Below, piece after piece: positions 40,956 to 50,011 of a DNA stretch of 64,000 nt. Location of the stretch: the NCBI RefSeq assembly GCF_037940415.1, contig NZ_CP149798.1, positions 4,497,001 through 4,561,000 on the forward strand. The letters are read 5' to 3'. This DNA is from Streptomyces sp. f51. Lineage in GTDB: Bacteria > Actinomycetota > Actinomycetes > Streptomycetales > Streptomycetaceae. The first letter of the stretch is position 1. Every line of letters begins with the position of its first letter. A program made the translations under genes and the position numbers. The notes under the pieces were generated by a model that did not search any database, was not told the origin of the DNA, and saw only the letters and a program-made list of their open reading frames with translations.

Positions 40956-42357
<1,402 letters not shown>

Positions 42358-42365
42358 CGGCCGAG

Positions 42366-42409
42366 GCCGCCGCCGCAGGGGTGGCCGTGCCCGGCCCCGC
42401 GGCGGCGGC
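42366..42409. terminator. trpS terminator
   Basis: GCCGCCGCCGC at 42366-42376 pairs with 42399-42409, starting 8 bases after the stop. Confidence 0.75.
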
Positions 42410-42581
42410 GCGGCTCCCTACCACACCACCTTCGGCAGTCAGTACGAGACGAGCGCGACACTGCCGTGACGGCCGATTGCGGGTCATACCGCCGTACAGT
42501 CGGAAGCCGGGGAGCGAAGCGATCGCCTCCTCCGCGCAGCACCACCGGACAGCCCGATCATCGACGACGACAGGAGACGAC

Positions 42582-43163
42582 GTGGGGACCGTAACGATCG
42601 GCGTGTCGATCGCGGTCCCGGAGCCTCACGGCAGCCTGCTCCAGGAGCGGCGCGCGGGCTTCGGCGACCCCGCGGCCTGCTGCATTCCCACGCATGTCAC
42701 CCTGCTGCCGCCGACCGAGGTCGAGCGGTCGGCGCTGCCCGCGATCGAGGCGCACCTCGTCCGGGTCGCCGCCGCCGGGCGCCCGTTCCCGATGCGGCTG
42801 TCCGGCACGGGCACCTTCCGCCCGCTCTCCCCGGTCGTGTACGTACGCGTCGCCGAGGGCGCCGAGGCCTGCACCCGGCTTCAGAGCCAGGTACGGGACG
42901 CCTCCGGCCCCGTCGCCCGCGAGCTCCAGTTCCCGTACCACCCGCATGTCACCGTGGCGCACGGCATCGGCGAAGAGGCCATGGACCACGCCTTCGAGGC
43001 GCTGTCCGGGTTCGAGGCCGGGTGGCCCTGCACCGGGTTCGCCCTCTACGAACAGGGCGCGGACGGCGTGTGGCGCAAGTTGCGGGAGTTCCCCTTCGGC
43101 AGCGCGGTGGTGCCCCCTCAGGCGTCCTCGCCCGAGCGGGACACCACCCTTCCGGCACTCTGA
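42582..43163 (+). CDS. 2H phosphoesterase / 2'-5' RNA ligase family protein
   Basis: This 193-residue protein has the two His-x-Thr motifs of the 2H superfamily: PTHVTLLPP near 38-46 and HPHVTVAHG near 122-130. The fold catalyses cyclic phosphodiester or RNA-end reactions; which one cannot be told from sequence. The GTG at 42582 follows AGGAG. It follows trpS after a terminator and a 172-base gap, so it is probably transcribed separately. Confidence 0.88.
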   Translation: MGTVTIGVSIAVPEPHGSLLQERRAGFGDPAACCIPTHVTLLPPTEVERSALPAIEAHLVRVAAAGRPFPMRLSGTGTFRPLSPVVYVRVAEGAEACTRLQSQVRDASGPVARELQFPYHPHVTVAHGIGEEAMDHAFEALSGFEAGWPCTGFALYEQGADGVWRKLREFPFGSAVVPPQASSPERDTTLPAL

Positions 43164-43226: not shown

Positions 43227-43982
43227 TCAGACCGGCAGCCGCCTGAACACGGCCCGCGGCGTGTGCCGCAGCGCCGACATGACCATCCTGAGCGCCCCCG
43301 GCACCCACACCGTCTCGGAGCGGCGCCTGAGCCCCAGCTCGATCGCCGCGGCCACCGCCTCCGGAGTCGTCGACAGCGGCACCTCCGGCAGATGGGCCGT
43401 CATCCGCGTACGGACGAACCCGGGGCGTACGACCATGACGTGGGCGCCCGTGCCGTGCAGGGCGTCGCCCAGGCCCTGCGCGAAGGCGTCGAGGCCCGCC
43501 TTGCTGGAGCCGTAGATGAAGTTCGAGCGGCGGGCCCGCTCGCCCGCGACCGAGGACAGCACCACCAGGGAGCCGTGCCCCTGCGTCTGGAGCGCCCGCG
43601 CGCACACCAGGCCCGAGGACACGGCCCCCGTGTAGTTGGTCTGCGCGACCCTGACCGCGGCGACCGGCTCCTTCTCGTCCACGGCCTGGTCGCCGAGCAC
43701 CCCGAAGGCCATCAGCACCATGTCGATGTCCCCCTCGGCGAACACCTTGCCGAGCACGGCCTCGTGGGACTCGGGATCGAGGGCGTCGAAGGCGAGGGTG
43801 CGGACGTCCGCGCCGAGCCCGCGCAGCCGCCCGGCCGCCTCCTCCAGGCCGGGCGCCGGCCGTCCGGCGAGCCACACCGTCCGGGTGCGCCGGGTGATCA
43901 TCCGGCGGGCGGTGGCCAGCGCGATCTCGGACGTGCCGCCGAGGACCAGCAGGGACTGGGGGATACCGAAGGCGTCCTTCAT
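43227..43982 (-). CDS. dprE2: Decaprenylphospho-2-keto-ribose reductase-like SDR
   Basis: This 251-residue short-chain dehydrogenase has LLVLGGTSEIALATARR (about 11-27), the catalytic SS...YGSSK set (VLSSVAGERARRSNFIYGSSKAG) and an FRRLPV end. The GGTSEIA start is characteristic of DprE2, which reduces the keto intermediate to decaprenylphosphoryl-arabinose. The ATG at 43982 follows AGGAGC. It lies 132 bases downstream of dprE1 on the same strand. The polyprenyl length in this organism is unknown. Confidence 0.87.
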   Translation of the reverse strand: MKDAFGIPQSLLVLGGTSEIALATARRMITRRTRTVWLAGRPAPGLEEAAGRLRGLGADVRTLAFDALDPESHEAVLGKVFAEGDIDMVLMAFGVLGDQAVDEKEPVAAVRVAQTNYTGAVSSGLVCARALQTQGHGSLVVLSSVAGERARRSNFIYGSSKAGLDAFAQGLGDALHGTGAHVMVVRPGFVRTRMTAHLPEVPLSTTPEAVAAAIELGLRRRSETVWVPGALRMVMSALRHTPRAVFRRLPV

Positions 43983-44114
43983 GACAGCTCGCTCCTAGAG
44001 ACGGGGGGAACAGGGCGGGCGGCCGGGGAACGGGCCGCCGTGCGGGTGGGGGGACCGGCGCGGGGGCGCCGGGGGGTGGCCCTGCGGGCGGGACGTCGCC
44101 GACGAGCCCCGGAC

Positions 44115-45464
44115 CTAGAGACCGAGCCGGCGGGACAGGTCCGAGGTGAACACTCCGCGCGGGTCCAGCTCCCGCCGCAGCGCCCGGAACACGCCGAGCC
44201 GCGGATACATCGCGGCCAGCAGCTCCGGACGCAGCCGTGCGTCCTTGGCGAGGTACACCCGTCCTCCTGCGTCCGCCACCTCCTCGTCGAGACCGTCAAG
44301 GAAGGTGCCGAGGCCCGGCAGGCCGGCGGGGATGTCCAGGGCGAGGGTCCAGCCGGGCACGGGGAAGGACAGCCAGCCGGGGTCGCCGTCGCCGAAGCGC
44401 TTCAGGACGGCGAGGAAGGAGGGGCAGCGGCGTCCGGAGATGCGCCGCACGATCCGGCGCAGGGTCTCCTCCCGGCCGTGTCCGACGACGAACTGGTACT
44501 GGACGAAGCCGCCGCGCCCGTAGACGCGGTTCCAGTGGGGCACCCCGTCGAGGGGATGGAAGAAGGCCGGGATCGGCTGGAGTTCACCGCGCCGCGCGCG
44601 CGGTGCCTTGCGGTACCAGAGCTCGTTGAACAGGCCCACCGTCGTCCGTCCGAGGAGCCCTTCGGGCAGGAAGGAGGGGGCGGCGGGGAGTCGCGAGGGC
44701 CGGAATTCCAGCGGGTGTCTGCGCGCCCGCGCCGGCAGCGCGTCCAGCGGCGCGTGATCGCCGCGCGTCAGGACCGCGCGGCCCGTCGCCGCCCCGCGCG
44801 CGAGGAGGTCGATCCAGGCCACCGAGTAGCGGTAGCGGTGGTCGGTGGCGGTGAGGCGCGCCATCAGGTCGTCCAGGTCCGCCGCGCGTTCGGTGTCGAC
44901 GGACATCAGGCCGCTCTCCACCGGCCGGAGGCGGACGGTGGCCGTCAGGATCACCCCGGTCAGGCCCATGCCGCCCGCCGTGGCGTCGAACAGGGGGGTG
45001 CCGCGCCCGACCGTCCTGATCTCGCCGTCCGCCGTCAGCAGCTCGAAGGACAGGACATGACGGGAGAAGGAGCCCGACACATGGTGGTTCTTGCCGTGGA
45101 TGTCCGCGCCGATCGCGCCGCCCACGGTGACGTAGCGGGTCCCCGGGGTCACCGGCACGAACCAGCCCAGGGGAAGCAGGACCTCCATCAGCCGGTGCAG
45201 GGACACCCCCGCGTCGCACAGGACCGTGCCGCCGTCGGCGTCGATGGCGTGGATCCGGTCCAGGCCCGTCATGTCGAGCACCGCCCCGCCGGCGTTCTGC
45301 GCGGCGTCGCCGTACGCCCGTCCGAGCCCCCGGGCGATCCCTCCCCGTGCCCCGCACTCCCGGACGGCGGCCGCCGCCTCCCCGTAGGTGCGCGGGCGGA
45401 CCATTCGGGCGGTGGTCGGGGCGGTGCGGCCCCAACCCGTGACGGAGACGGAGTCGGCAGGCAT
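44115..45464 (-). CDS. dprE1: Decaprenylphospho-ribose 2-oxidase-like flavoprotein
   Basis: This 449-residue FAD enzyme matches DprE1: SVTGWGRTAPTTARMVRP, the FAD-binding ARGLGRAYGDAAQNAGG and VTVGGAIGADIHGKNHHVSGSF, and the C-terminal MYPRLGVFRALRRELDPRGVF. It oxidises polyprenylphosphoryl-ribose at C2. At the position of the mycobacterial Cys387 that benzothiazinones attack (GWNICVD), this protein reads GWTLALD, so the Cys is Ala (codon 44340-44342). The ATG at 45464 is chosen; a TTG at 45497 is in frame. It is divergent from the PAP2 gene. Confidence 0.9.
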   Translation of the reverse strand: MPADSVSVTGWGRTAPTTARMVRPRTYGEAAAAVRECGARGGIARGLGRAYGDAAQNAGGAVLDMTGLDRIHAIDADGGTVLCDAGVSLHRLMEVLLPLGWFVPVTPGTRYVTVGGAIGADIHGKNHHVSGSFSRHVLSFELLTADGEIRTVGRGTPLFDATAGGMGLTGVILTATVRLRPVESGLMSVDTERAADLDDLMARLTATDHRYRYSVAWIDLLARGAATGRAVLTRGDHAPLDALPARARRHPLEFRPSRLPAAPSFLPEGLLGRTTVGLFNELWYRKAPRARRGELQPIPAFFHPLDGVPHWNRVYGRGGFVQYQFVVGHGREETLRRIVRRISGRRCPSFLAVLKRFGDGDPGWLSFPVPGWTLALDIPAGLPGLGTFLDGLDEEVADAGGRVYLAKDARLRPELLAAMYPRLGVFRALRRELDPRGVFTSDLSRRLGL

Positions 45465-45606
45465 GACCGTGACCGTAGCGCCGCCGAGGGGACGCAACGG
45501 GGCAATCCACCCAGCACTCCGGGCTCCTCACCGAAATGGGTGATTAATGGGATGTCGTCCAAGATTGCCGTAATTCTTTGACCGCTCCCTAGAAGAGTGG
45601 CCTCAC

Positions 45607-46203
45607 ATGGACGACCTTGACGACCGTGACGAGATGGATCGGCGGCTTGACGACCATGGCCACCGGGACGACAGGGATCAACGCCCGGACGGCCACGGCC
45701 ACCGGGGCAGCGGCATGGACCGACGGCTGCTGTCCGTGTTCCACGCGTACGGCGGGGACCCGCGCGTCGCGGCCGCCGCCCGCGCCCTGTCCTGGAGCGG
45801 GGAGCACGGTGCCCTGTGGCTCGCCGCGGGACTCACCGGGGCGGCCGCCGACCACGGGAGGCGCGCGGCGTGGCTGCGCGCCACGGCGCTCACCGCGGGC
45901 GCGCACCTCGCCAGCATGGGCGTGAAGCGGATCGTGCGCCGTCCGCGCCCCACACACGTGGCGCCCCGGGCCCGCACCGCAGGACGGCACTCCTTCCCCA
46001 GCTCCCACGCGGCCTCCGCCACCGCGGCCGCGGTCGCCTACGGCATGCTCGGCGCCTACGCCGTGCCGCCGCTCGCCGCCGCGATGTGCCTCTCCCGCCT
46101 CGTCGTCGGTGTCCACTACCCCACGGACATCGCCGCCGGCGCGGCCCTGGGCGCCGCGACGGCCGGACTGGGCGCCCGCTGGATCGGAGCCGGCCATGGC
46201 TGA
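45607..46203 (+). CDS. PAP2-family phosphatase, possible polyprenyl-phosphoribose-phosphate phosphatase
   Basis: This 198-residue membrane phosphatase has the three PAP2 motifs: KRIVRRPRP, SFPSSHAAS and SRLVVGVHYPTD. The first 36 residues are a Asp/His/Arg repeat; ATG 45715 (MDRRLLSVFHAYGG) may be the true start. By analogy with Rv3807c it may remove the phosphate left by the prenyltransferase, giving polyprenylphosphoryl-ribose for DprE1. The next gene overlaps by 8 bases. Confidence 0.85.
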   Translation: MDDLDDRDEMDRRLDDHGHRDDRDQRPDGHGHRGSGMDRRLLSVFHAYGGDPRVAAAARALSWSGEHGALWLAAGLTGAAADHGRRAAWLRATALTAGAHLASMGVKRIVRRPRPTHVAPRARTAGRHSFPSSHAASATAAAVAYGMLGAYAVPPLAAAMCLSRLVVGVHYPTDIAAGAALGAATAGLGARWIGAGHG

Positions 46204-47140
46204 GCGCACCGCGCTCCTGGAGCGCGCCCCGGTCCTCGCCCCGCCGCCGCGGACCCTGACCGGGCTGGTGCGGGGCCTGGTCAGAACGGCGCGGCCCCGC
46301 CAGTGGGTCAAGAACGTGCTCGTCGTGGCGGCCCCGGCCGCCGCGGGACGGCTCTTCTCGCCGCACGCGTTCGGCCGGCTCGCCCTCGTCTTCGTGCTGT
46401 TCACGGCCTGCGCCGCCGCCGTGTACCTGATCAACGACGCCCGGGACGCCGCCGCCGACCGCGCCCACCCCGTCAAGCGCCACCGCCCCGTCGCCGCCGG
46501 CCAGGTCCCCGTACCGGCCGCGTACGCCGTCGGCGGCACCCTCGGGGTCCTCGCGCCCGCGGCCGCCGCCTGGCTCTGCTCGGCGTCCGTCTGCGCGCTG
46601 CTGACCGCGTACATCGGCATGCAGCTCGCGTACTGCGTCAGCCTCAAGCACGTGCTCGTCGTGGACCTCGTCGTCGTCACGACCGGGTTCCTGATGCGGG
46701 CCGTGATCGGCGGTCTGGCCCTGGGCATCCCGCTCTCGCGCTGGTTCCTGATCACCACCGGCTTCGGGGCGCTGTTCATGGTCTCGGCGAAGCGTTACTC
46801 CGAGGCCGTCCAGATGGCGGGGAAGGCGGGGGCCACGCGGGCTCTGCTGACCGAGTACACGACCGGCTATCTGCGCTTCGTCTGGCAGCTGGCCGCCGGG
46901 GTCTCCGTCCTCGGCTACTGCCTGTGGGCGCTGGAGGAGGGCGGGGCGCCGAGCACCGGCCTGCTGCCGTGGCGCCAGCTGTCCATGGTCGCCTTCATCC
47001 TGGCGGTCCTGCGCTACGCGGTCTTCGCCGACCGGGGTTCGGCGGGCGAGCCGGAGGACGTGGTCCTGCGCGACCGCCCGCTCGCCCTCATCGGGCTGGT
47101 GTGGCTGGCGATGTACGGACTGGCCGTGGCCCATTGGTGA
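46196..47140 (+). CDS. Decaprenyl-phosphate phosphoribosyltransferase-like UbiA family protein
   Basis: This 314-residue polytopic membrane enzyme has the two Asp-rich motifs of UbiA prenyltransferases, YLINDARDAAADRAHPVKRHRP (NDxxD) and the second in the AKRYSE region. TARPRQWVKNVLV and YLRFVWQ are typical of Rv3806c-type proteins, which transfer phosphoribose from PRPP to polyprenyl phosphate. It overlaps the PAP2 gene upstream and the GtrA gene downstream (GTGA). Confidence 0.88.
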   Translation: MAERTALLERAPVLAPPPRTLTGLVRGLVRTARPRQWVKNVLVVAAPAAAGRLFSPHAFGRLALVFVLFTACAAAVYLINDARDAAADRAHPVKRHRPVAAGQVPVPAAYAVGGTLGVLAPAAAAWLCSASVCALLTAYIGMQLAYCVSLKHVLVVDLVVVTTGFLMRAVIGGLALGIPLSRWFLITTGFGALFMVSAKRYSEAVQMAGKAGATRALLTEYTTGYLRFVWQLAAGVSVLGYCLWALEEGGAPSTGLLPWRQLSMVAFILAVLRYAVFADRGSAGEPEDVVLRDRPLALIGLVWLAMYGLAVAHW

Positions 47141-47712
47141 GCGTCACCGGGAACCGGCCCGCCCCGGGGCCGCCCACCAGGGGCGGGACCGGTGCGGGTG
47201 CACCGGACGTGCCGGGGTCCGCCGTCAGGGAGCCGGCCGCCCCGGGGCCGGCCGTCGCGGAAGCGGTGACCGGGCCCGGGGCGGGACGGCGGGGGCTGCT
47301 GCGTGAACTCGCCGGGTTCGCCTCGGTCGGCCTCCTCGCCTACGCGGCCGACCTCGGCCTCTTCGTCTGGCTCCGCGGCCCGGCCGGTCTCGACCCGCTG
47401 ACCGCCAAGTCGCTGTCGTTCCTCGCCGGCTGCTCGGTGGCGTACGCCGGGAACGCGCTCGGCACCTACCGGCACGCGGCGGCACGCGGCCCGCGGCAGT
47501 ACGTGATCTTCTTCGGGGTGAACATCGCGGGCGCGCTCGTGCAATTGCTCTGTATCGCCGTCAGTCACTACGCGCTCGGTTTCACCTCCCCGCGCGCGGA
47601 CACGGTCTCCGGAGCGGGAATCGGCATGGCGCTGGCCACTGCCTTGCGATTCTGGGGTACCCGCTCACTGGTTTTCCGAGGCGAGGGCAGAGTCGGATCA
47701 TGGACTGGCTGA
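47137..47712 (+). CDS. GtrA-family membrane protein
   Basis: This 191-residue protein has a Pro/Gly-rich N-terminus of about 50 residues and four membrane segments (FASVGLLAYAADLGLFVWL; SVAYAGNALGTYRHAA; YVIFFGVNIAGALVQLLCI; IGMALATALRFWGTRSLVF). GtrA proteins help flip or present polyprenyl-linked sugars. In mycobacteria Rv3789, next to dprE1, is of this family. The start is a GTG overlapping the UbiA stop, and its end overlaps the YihY start by 13 bases. Confidence 0.87.
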   Translation: MSVTGNRPAPGPPTRGGTGAGAPDVPGSAVREPAAPGPAVAEAVTGPGAGRRGLLRELAGFASVGLLAYAADLGLFVWLRGPAGLDPLTAKSLSFLAGCSVAYAGNALGTYRHAAARGPRQYVIFFGVNIAGALVQLLCIAVSHYALGFTSPRADTVSGAGIGMALATALRFWGTRSLVFRGEGRVGSWTG

Positions 47713-48674
47713 AAAAGATTCCCGGCGTGGGACCTCTGGTCGTACGCCTCATGGCGACGCACGCGTGGCGGTCGTACGAGCGGCTCGACCGGGTGAAATG
47801 GACGCGGCTCGCCGCGGCGATGACCTTCATCAGCTTCATCGCGCTGTTCCCGCTGCTGACCGTGGCCGCGGCGATCGGCGCCGCCACGCTGAGTCCCCAG
47901 CAGCAGAAGGACCTCCAGGACAAGCTCGCCGAGCAGGTGCCGGGCATCTCCGACCAGCTCGACATCCACGCCCTGGTCCAGAACGCGGGCACGATCGGGC
48001 TCGTCGCGGGCGCCCTGCTGCTGATCACCGGCATCGGCTGGGTCGGCCAGATGCGGGACTGTCTGCGCGCGGTCTGGGAACTGCCCGACAGCGAGGAGAA
48101 CCCCCTCCTGCGCAAGCTCAAGGACGGCGGGATCCTCATCGGTCTCGGCGGCGCCGTGCTCCTGACGATCGCCGTCTCCACCCTCGCGTCCACGGCGATG
48201 GGCTGGTCGGCGCGGCACGTGGGACTCGACGAGCACGGCTGGGGGACCACCCTGCTCCAGGGCGTCGCCTTCGCGGTGGCCGTCCTCGCCGACTTCCTGG
48301 TCCTGCTGTACGTCCTGACCCTGCTGCCCGGTGTCGAGCCGCCGCGCCGCCGGCTGATCGTCGGGGCGCTGATCGGCGCCGTCGGGTTCGAGCTGCTCAA
48401 GCTGCTGCTCAGCGGCTATATGCGGGGGGTGGCGTCGAAGAGCATGTACGGCGCCTTCGGCGTGCCCATCGCGCTGCTCCTGTGGATCAACTTCACCTCG
48501 AAACTGCTCCTGTACGCCGCCGCCTGGACGGCGACCCGGAGCGAGGGGCAGGAGCGGGAGGCCGCCGGTCCGCGGGAGCCGGAGGTCCCGGACGAGCCCG
48601 CCGGTCCGCGGGAACCGGCGGGGCCCGAGGGCCGGAAGGACCCGGGGGGCCGCGAGGTCCGCGCGGGCCCCTGA
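47700..48674 (+). CDS. YihY/BrkB family membrane protein
   Basis: This 324-residue protein has six or so membrane segments between about 35 and 275, with the conserved RVKWTRLAAAMTFISFIALFPLLT and the RLKDGG, GVEPPRRR and FGVPIALLLWINF regions. A Pro/Glu/Arg tail of about 45 residues follows. Function unknown; it is not an RNase BN. Overlap with GtrA places it in the same operon, though its link to the arabinose pathway is only positional. Confidence 0.85.
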   Translation: MDWLKKIPGVGPLVVRLMATHAWRSYERLDRVKWTRLAAAMTFISFIALFPLLTVAAAIGAATLSPQQQKDLQDKLAEQVPGISDQLDIHALVQNAGTIGLVAGALLLITGIGWVGQMRDCLRAVWELPDSEENPLLRKLKDGGILIGLGGAVLLTIAVSTLASTAMGWSARHVGLDEHGWGTTLLQGVAFAVAVLADFLVLLYVLTLLPGVEPPRRRLIVGALIGAVGFELLKLLLSGYMRGVASKSMYGAFGVPIALLLWINFTSKLLLYAAAWTATRSEGQEREAAGPREPEVPDEPAGPREPAGPEGRKDPGGREVRAGP

Positions 48675-48685
48675 GCCCCGGGCTG

Positions 48686-50011
48686 TCAGCGGCGGCGGCG
48701 CATCAGGTCAGGCAGCGGCCAGCGCCGGTTGACCAGGAAGACGCCCGCCGCGAGCAGGACGAGGAAGCCGCCGGCCAGACCGAGCGCGACGCCGATGCCG
48801 CTCGAACCGCCCCTCGCCCCGGCGGTGGAGGCCGCCACCGGCTTCGTGGAGGCGTTCGCGCCGCCCGTGCCGGAGCCCGTGCCGTGGCTCGCTCCGCCCG
48901 ACGCGTTGGCGCCCGGCTGGGCGGTGGTGTCGACGCCCTTGGGCGGGACCAGCTCGCCCACCGGCTGCACCTTGCCCGCGGCCTGGAATCCCCAGTCGAG
49001 CAGTTGCGCGGCCTCCTTGTAGACCTCGTTGTGCTCCTTCTTCTCCGGGTTCATGACCGTCACGAGCAGCACCTTGCCGCCGCGTTCGGCGACGCCCGTG
49101 AAGGTGGCGCCCGCGTTGGTGGTGTTGCCGTTCTTCACGCCCGCGATGCCCTGATACGGGGTCACGTCGCTGTCACCGGCGAGCAGCCGGTTGGTGTTCT
49201 GGATCTCGAAGGTCGAGCGGCCCGTGCCCTTCCCGTTCTTGGCCCTCACGCCGGGGAACTCGGCCCGCACCGTCGAGCAGTACTCCCGGAAGTCCTTCTT
49301 CTGGAGCCCCGAACGGGCGAACAGGGTCAGGTCGTACGCCGACGACACCTGGCCCCCGGCGTCGTATCCGTCCGGGCTGACCACGTGCGTGTCGAGGGCC
49401 TGGAGGTCCTCGGCGTGCGCCTGCATGTCCTTGACCGTCTCGTCGACACCGCCGTTCATCGCGGACAGCACGTGCACGGCGTCGTTGCCGGAGCGCAGGA
49501 ACACCCCGAGCCACAGGTCGTGGACGGAGTACGTCTGGTTCTCCTTTATCCCCACCACGCTGGAGCCCGCGCCGATGCCCGCCAGGTCGGAGGAGGTCAC
49601 CTTGTGCGAGGTGCTCCTCGGGAACCTGGGCAGCACCGTGTCGGCGAACAGCATCTTCAGGGTGCTCGCCGGGGGCAGTCGCCAGTGGGCGTTGTGCGCG
49701 GCCAGGACGTCCCCGGACTCCGCGTCGGCGACGATCCAGGAACGGGCGGTGACGTCCGCGGGCAGGACGGGGGCGCCGCCGCCGAGGCTCACCTGGTTGC
49801 CGGGCCGGCCGAGCCGCTCGCCGCCGAGGCTCGACATGTGCGCGGGGGGTGTGGCCGACGGAGAGGCCGTGGGGCTCTCCGACGGGCTCGCGTCGGTGGT
49901 GTCGGTGGTGTCTTTGGTGTCGGCGAACGCGGGCGCGGTGAGCGAAAGGGCCAGCAAGGTGGCGGAAGCGGTCAGCAGGGATCGCCGAATGGTCTTTTTC
50001 GAGGCGGGCAC
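48686..50011 (-). CDS. D-alanyl-D-alanine carboxypeptidase (PBP5-type)
   Basis: This 441-residue cell-wall enzyme has a signal peptide (cleavage near AFA, 28-30), a Ser/Thr/Pro linker and the penicillin-binding motifs STLK (S116-K119), SGN (174-176) and KNG (in GIAGVKNGNT, in place of the usual KTG). A Gly/Ser-rich linker and one C-terminal membrane segment (GIGVALGLAGGFLVLLAAGVF) anchor it. It trims terminal D-Ala from peptidoglycan. The GTG at 50011 is used; no strong ribosome binding site is seen. It is divergent from the small membrane protein gene. Confidence 0.9.
   Translation of the reverse strand: MPASKKTIRRSLLTASATLLALSLTAPAFADTKDTTDTTDASPSESPTASPSATPPAHMSSLGGERLGRPGNQVSLGGGAPVLPADVTARSWIVADAESGDVLAAHNAHWRLPPASTLKMLFADTVLPRFPRSTSHKVTSSDLAGIGAGSSVVGIKENQTYSVHDLWLGVFLRSGNDAVHVLSAMNGGVDETVKDMQAHAEDLQALDTHVVSPDGYDAGGQVSSAYDLTLFARSGLQKKDFREYCSTVRAEFPGVRAKNGKGTGRSTFEIQNTNRLLAGDSDVTPYQGIAGVKNGNTTNAGATFTGVAERGGKVLLVTVMNPEKKEHNEVYKEAAQLLDWGFQAAGKVQPVGELVPPKGVDTTAQPGANASGGASHGTGSGTGGANASTKPVAASTAGARGGSSGIGVALGLAGGFLVLLAAGVFLVNRRWPLPDLMRRRR

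Follow-up and report, generated by a model that had tools for sequence, protein, structure and literature searches.

What does a Streptomyces chromosome do with the enzymes by which mycobacteria make decaprenylphosphoryl-arabinose (DPA)? This question is raised by the locus at positions 43227-47712 of the window, the whole stretch of 64,000 nucleotides from Streptomyces sp. f51 that was analyzed (contig NZ_CP149798.1, 4,497,001-4,561,000, forward strand). An original prediction had placed a UbiA-type phosphoribosyltransferase, a PAP2 phosphatase, DprE1, DprE2 and a GtrA protein there, had read them as a full polyprenylphosphoryl-arabinose-type pathway in a core region, and had left the acceptor of the sugar open. 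All five genes were confirmed at exactly these coordinates, which span the locus from the DprE2 stop to the GtrA stop. The locus very probably makes polyprenylphosphoryl-arabinofuranose, and the chances are about even that its acceptor is a teichoic-acid-type wall polymer. In the best overall explanation, held with the same evenly divided confidence, polyprenylphosphoryl-arabinofuranose would serve as the donor for arabinosylating such a polymer, and a membrane GT-C transferase would move arabinofuranose to it from the lipid.

Gene identities and the coupling of DprE1 to UbiA

DprE1, DprE2 and UbiA were called by the curated NCBIfam equivalog cut-offs, which all three exceeded (Table 1). In addition, DprE1 matched the Mycobacterium tuberculosis (Mtb) DprE1 in PDB with an E value of 3e-125, and UbiA matched the Mtb decaprenyl-phosphate phosphoribosyltransferase (PDB 8j8j) at 1.4e-81; judged by such sequence scores, chance is no issue for the assigned identities of the operon genes. 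Each of the five reading frames is open and retains its motifs, including the catalytic S, Y and K of DprE2, the KX6RP, PSSHA and SRX5H motifs of the PAP2 protein, and the NDxxDxxxDxxHPxK motif of UbiA. For the 5-phosphate phosphatase step, membership of the PAP2 superfamily and its motifs were seen, and family membership does not tell the substrate. The window DprE1 has the equivalents of Mtb Y60, H132, K134, Q334, Q336, K367 and K418, and its pocket differs from that of Mtb at Y314 (Phe), N385 (Thr) and C387 (Ala), the Phe and Thr being usual in other non-mycobacterial DprE1 as well.

The genus was sampled with 150 Streptomyces genomes, and 45% identity or more was taken to define a close UbiA. 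DprE1 was found in 83 genomes, a close UbiA in 57 and both in 56, so that DprE1 was missing from about 45% of the sample and UbiA had been lost in a further 18%. Among the DprE1-positive genomes, 27/83 were without a close UbiA; PAP2, UbiA and GtrA were all absent from the 20 loci of this kind that were read (20/20), and the distance from the DprE1 start to yihY, where measured, was 128-977 bases in UbiA-less loci versus 2235 in this genome. One UbiA-less genome retained just a 63-residue UbiA remnant adjoining DprE1, and no other DPPR-synthase-like gene was found in 18 of the 27.

The Mtb active-site residues were invariant or nearly so in mycobacteria, in other members of the phylum and in non-orphan Streptomyces. 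In the UbiA-less genomes, the K134 position was altered in 20/23, Q334 in 12 and K418 in 4. This comparison used 87 non-orphan DprE1, some of them on contigs too short to show UbiA and some, from Streptacidiphilus, with no UbiA nearby, and both kinds were left out of the tree test. On the tree, which was built on TrpS, DacC and DprE2 from 85 loci, the presence of UbiA changed 11 times and the intactness of the DprE1 active site also 11 times, and the independent contrasts on supported branches ran in the same direction in 7/7 cases (median sign-test p, 0.016). The loci on the tree included 60 with UbiA and an intact site, 22 without UbiA and with a damaged site, and 1 without UbiA and with an intact site; in S. 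composti, the sole UbiA-bearing exception with a damaged site, UbiA is split into two pieces. The DprE1 active site thus decays in step with the loss of UbiA, which argues that DprE1 needs the product of UbiA, and its retention only where UbiA is kept is what a shared substrate chain predicts. The PAP2, UbiA, GtrA, DprE1 and DprE2 set acts as one pathway, and the full pathway of the original prediction finds support in the family scores, in the catalytic residues and in this coupling.

DprE1 without UbiA remained under purifying selection, with a median pairwise ratio of nonsynonymous to synonymous substitution rates (dN/dS) of 0.33 versus 0.22 with UbiA. Selection on DprE2 was unchanged (dN/dS, 0.21 without and 0.20 with UbiA), and its catalytic Y and K were kept in 22/22 UbiA-less genomes. 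It is possible that DprE1 in UbiA-less Streptomyces is a pseudo-enzyme with another role. Full-length DprE1 with a changed site, often K134R, was observed in UbiA-less loci L103-L119, L121, L122, L043, L163, L187 and L201. Separately, Ala occupies the position of Mtb C387, the benzothiazinone-bound cysteine, in the window DprE1 as in every non-orphan Streptomyces DprE1 of the comparison, and covalent benzothiazinone inhibition is not expected for this reason.

Across the phylum, the DprE1 cut-off was exceeded in 56/396 genomes, which belong to mycobacteria, Streptomyces and numerous other families. Most of the Streptomyces loci read, among them those of S. scabiei 87.22, S. antibioticus and S. 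coelicoflavus, occupy the same site between trpS/2H-ligase and yihY/dacC. Since the site is shared but DprE1 and UbiA are patchy, it is an old site of the chromosome that often lacks the pathway; the term core region therefore suits the site and not its contents, with DprE1 and a close UbiA together in just the 56 genomes given above. Another UbiA, DPPR-synthase-like but more distant at ~33-39% identity and scoring 158-189 bits, below the cut-off, was seen as a second type in genomes G446, G447, G438, G458, G413, G399, G503, G459, G409, G107 and G469, some of which are without DprE1. The UbiA of locus L120 (G453) is 61% identical to that of the window, in a genome without DprE1 and with no other operon genes around, and is possibly a user of polyprenylphosphoryl-ribose.

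Transferase candidates, acceptor and alternatives

Of the 150 Streptomyces, 15 have an AftB-like protein with 34-43% identity to a mycobacterial AftB; these proteins matched the solved AftB at 2.8e-75 with the DD motif present, and AftA-like proteins (34-35% identity) were found in two other genomes. All 17 genomes with an AftA- or AftB-like protein carry the full operon (Fisher 9e-9, ignoring phylogeny). Seven of the 16 AftB-like loci lie within TagF/teichoic-acid clusters; the AftB-like gene adjoins GT2-glycerophosphotransferase (TagF-type) fusion genes in five genomes, and in four of these five it is followed by a conserved multi-transmembrane (multi-TM) protein, designated c11. In L180, G171 and G525, AftB-like genes were also located close to the dpr genes (a single-sequence AlphaFold model of the L180 protein, with a confidence score, pLDDT, of 44, was unusable). 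The window itself contains no arabinofuranosyltransferase, as had been stated, and no GT-C gene is linked to the donor genes at this locus. The dpr genes themselves adjoin TagF/TarF-like genes in three independent lineages, counted after duplicate locus L025 had been merged into L042: the S. cacaoi/diacarni/AA1529 group, two members of which carry an AftB-like gene ~18 kb off; the NBC_01016/LHD-70/boluensis group, in which DprE2 of NBC_01016 is immediately followed by a remote homologue of AftB; and Streptacidiphilus. Because AftB-like genes and, in three lineages, dpr genes sit in TagF/TarF clusters, the acceptor that had been left open now points to a teichoic-acid-type polymer.

A second conserved context of AftB-like genes (L082, L083, L088, L090, L093, L094) comprises an ATP-binding cassette (ABC) ATPase fused to an S15-type hydrolase, an ABC-2 permease, an adenosine monophosphate-binding protein and, at some loci, several small one-TM proteins. 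The two AftA-like genes (L203:8774-10606 and L204:8659-10485; genomes G510 and G416) are each accompanied by a GT2 gene together with one for an 8-TM protein, and both loci are outside any TagF cluster read.

The syntenic TagF cluster of this genome (G000:C1, 2.815-2.841 Mb), which we take to correspond to SCO2997, contains in order a solute-binding protein, two permeases, three TagF fusions, a slot protein and c11, followed by further glycosyltransferases, an ABC exporter of TagG/TagH-like type and one more TagF fusion, the fourth. The slot protein, an unrelated 7-TM protein, occupies the place of AftB, and c11 (~69% identical) comes after it. At 58% identity or more, c11 was found in 34/83 DprE1-positive and 0/67 DprE1-negative genomes, and among the former in 30/56 with the full operon versus 4/27 without UbiA; the slot protein (60% or more) was found in 21 DprE1-positive and 3 DprE1-negative genomes. 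Either c11 or its 7-TM neighbor is the leading, as yet unproven, transferase candidate in this genome. Where the TagF cluster ends, a second GtrA gene is overlapped by that of a c11 paralogue (38%; L206:6684-8568, L207:6479-8357), a hint that proteins of the c11 family work with polyprenyl-phosphate sugars.

Several results weigh against arabinosylation of a teichoic-acid-type polymer. Emb (EmbA/B/C, PF04602) was found in 0/150 Streptomyces, this genome included, and AftA and AftB (NF041481, PF12250) gave no match in this genome; mycobacterial arabinogalactan is for these reasons not expected and was ruled out here, and the absence of its machinery is supported. Sixteen of the 56 full-operon genomes have no candidate transferase at all, and the co-occurrence tests of transferases were uncorrected for phylogeny. 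Profile comparison of c11 and the slot protein with AftB, AftA, Emb, GT87 and MptAB gave no significant match, so neither is supported as a GT-C enzyme by profile; c11 also had no PDB match and, for want of recognizable kinship to known GT-C families, is only a correlate in this strain. In the stretch read, no TagF genes adjoin 9/16 AftB-like loci or either of the AftA-like ones. Finally, the Streptomyces wall polymers described as teichulosonic acid and polydiglycosylphosphate (PMC7831098) contain no arabinose, and neither does the polyglycerolphosphate lipoteichoic acid of Streptomyces (PMC3196553).

The AftA- and AftB-like loci outside TagF clusters are also what would be seen if polyprenylphosphoryl-arabinofuranose were made and passed to another acceptor, such as a secreted glycoprotein, lipoglycan or other surface glycan, through a GT87, MptA/B-like or PMT-like enzyme. 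This is a serious possibility, though short of probable: six GT87 proteins and one MptA/B-like protein are present in this genome, and Pseudomonas puts the same type of donor on a pilin (PMC11127046), but no GT87, MptA/B-like or PMT-like gene is linked to dpr genes here, and dpr genes stand beside TagF/TarF genes repeatedly in other lineages. GT87 was accordingly not accepted as a ready answer; its co-occurrence with the operon across genomes was untried. A GT87 fused to a PAP2_3 phosphatase domain, forming a 697-aa membrane protein, was observed in this genome (L061:8038-10128, ~2.088-2.090 Mb).

It is unlikely that the enzymes handle another pentofuranose and no arabinose, for example with polyprenylphosphoryl-ribose as end product or with another epimer. 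The three pocket differences from Mtb DprE1 would allow it, and in other pentofuranose systems a UbiA-type synthase serves to make side chains of ribose or xylose (PMC11127046); however, Phe and Thr are common in other non-mycobacterial DprE1, DprE1 and DprE2 exceed their equivalog cut-offs with catalytic residues invariant where UbiA is present, and AftA/AftB relatives track the operon. The frequent loss of the operon within the genus would fit a functionless, decaying relic in this strain, but such a relic is highly improbable, given five open frames with intact motifs and a DprE1 site kept wherever UbiA remains.

Taken further, the teichoic-acid explanation leads to a broader proposal, which is offered tentatively. 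Streptomyces might arabinosylate wall teichoic acid outside the membrane from the lipid donor made by DprE1/DprE2, using exchangeable GT-C transferases (AftB-like, AftA-like and at least one unrecognized family, c11) located in polymer clusters; after loss of the donor synthase, DprE1 might become a conserved pseudo-enzyme with a new function beside an intact-looking DprE2.

Layout of the locus

The genes form two divergent arms, DprE2 and DprE1 on the minus strand and PAP2, UbiA and GtrA on the plus strand, and to judge from this arrangement both promoters likely lie in the intergenic region between them. The ATG of UbiA overlaps the stop of PAP2, and the start of GtrA overlaps the stop of UbiA within GTGA. 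The next gene, for YihY/BrkB, is probably outside the pathway because it is retained where PAP2-UbiA-GtrA is lost.

Table 1. Features of the locus and its flanks (window positions) and the c11 gene (genome position)
Feature	Position	Strand	Basis or remark
Conserved left flank	41365-43163	+	trpS 41365-42357; 2H-ligase-type gene 42582-43163; Streptomyces synteny
DprE2, decaprenylphospho-2-ketopentose 2-reductase (short-chain dehydrogenase/reductase)	43227-43982	-	NCBIfam NF053786, 376 bits, cut-off 250
DprE1, decaprenylphosphoryl-ribose 2-oxidase (flavin adenine dinucleotide)	44115-45464, ATG at 45464	-	NF053785, 688 bits, cut-off 500
Intergenic region between divergent arms	45465-45606		Gene arrangement
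PAP2 phosphatase, candidate 5-phosphoribose phosphatase	45607-46203 (alternative start 45715)	+	PF01569, 5e-16
UbiA-type polyprenyl-phosphate phosphoribosyltransferase (DPPR synthase)	46196-47140	+	NF008978, 424 bits, cut-off 207
GtrA-family membrane protein, candidate lipid-sugar exporter	47137-47712	+	PF04138, 5e-20
YihY/BrkB membrane protein	47700-48674	+	PF03631; overlaps GtrA stop, extends plus-strand run
Conserved right flank, D-Ala-D-Ala carboxypeptidase (dacC)	48686-49837, start uncertain, open reading frame to 50326	-	PF00768; synteny
c11, 543-aa multi-TM protein	G000:C1:2827437-2829065		7-TM slot protein just upstream

Significance and comparison with known systems

The analysis takes a validated tuberculosis drug-target pathway outside its arabinogalactan setting and would connect it, in the main genus of antibiotic producers, with wall polymers of the teichoic-acid type. 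The analysis also yields a short, testable list of transferases that may include an unrecognized family. The donor synthase has been lost several times, and the DprE1 site has then decayed; this natural experiment reveals residues needed for the reaction, and it raises the question of the role of the retained DprE1/DprE2 pair in UbiA-less Streptomyces. The literature search returned nothing on polyprenylphosphoryl-arabinose or DprE1 function in Streptomyces, except that an S. coelicolor DprE2 homologue was mentioned in passing. As far as such searches show, neither the link to teichoic acid nor the recurrent loss of UbiA with decay of DprE1 has been described.

Among known systems, the Streptomyces TagF-type wall teichoic acid clusters (SCO2997 and relatives; PMC5882110, PMC7831098) share the GT2-TagF fusion genes and are represented here by the syntenic cluster; no link to polyprenylphosphoryl-arabinose turned up in the papers searched. 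Relatives of AftB and AftA occur in 17/150 Streptomyces, always with the full operon and several in TagF clusters, whereas the genome of the window has neither. Kelly et al. 2024 (PMC11127046) described a general class of three-component extracytoplasmic pentofuranose additions, with DprE1/E2 homologues where arabinofuranose is the side chain, and its main text makes no mention of Streptomyces or teichoic acids. Those systems resemble the present one in the UbiA-type phosphoribose synthase, epimerase pair, exporter and GT-C logic, but they have a HAD phosphatase and a MATE flippase in place of PAP2 and GtrA; the Streptomyces locus is without a GT-C gene, and its proposed acceptor is a Gram-positive wall polymer. 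Type IV pilin arabinosylation in Pseudomonas aeruginosa, cited in the same paper, likewise employs lipid-linked arabinofuranose outside mycobacteria with the same enzyme types, its acceptor being a pilin. With the mycobacterial DPA pathway (Rv3806c, Rv3807c, DprE1 Rv3790, DprE2 Rv3791 and Rv3789), the locus has all five enzyme families in common, with the equivalog cut-offs exceeded and the active-site residues kept; it differs in its one compact divergent arrangement, in having no galactan or Emb machinery, and in the Ala and Phe at the C387 and Y314 positions of DprE1 in Streptomyces sp. f51. The locus is thus a new setting of a known, mycobacterial pathway.

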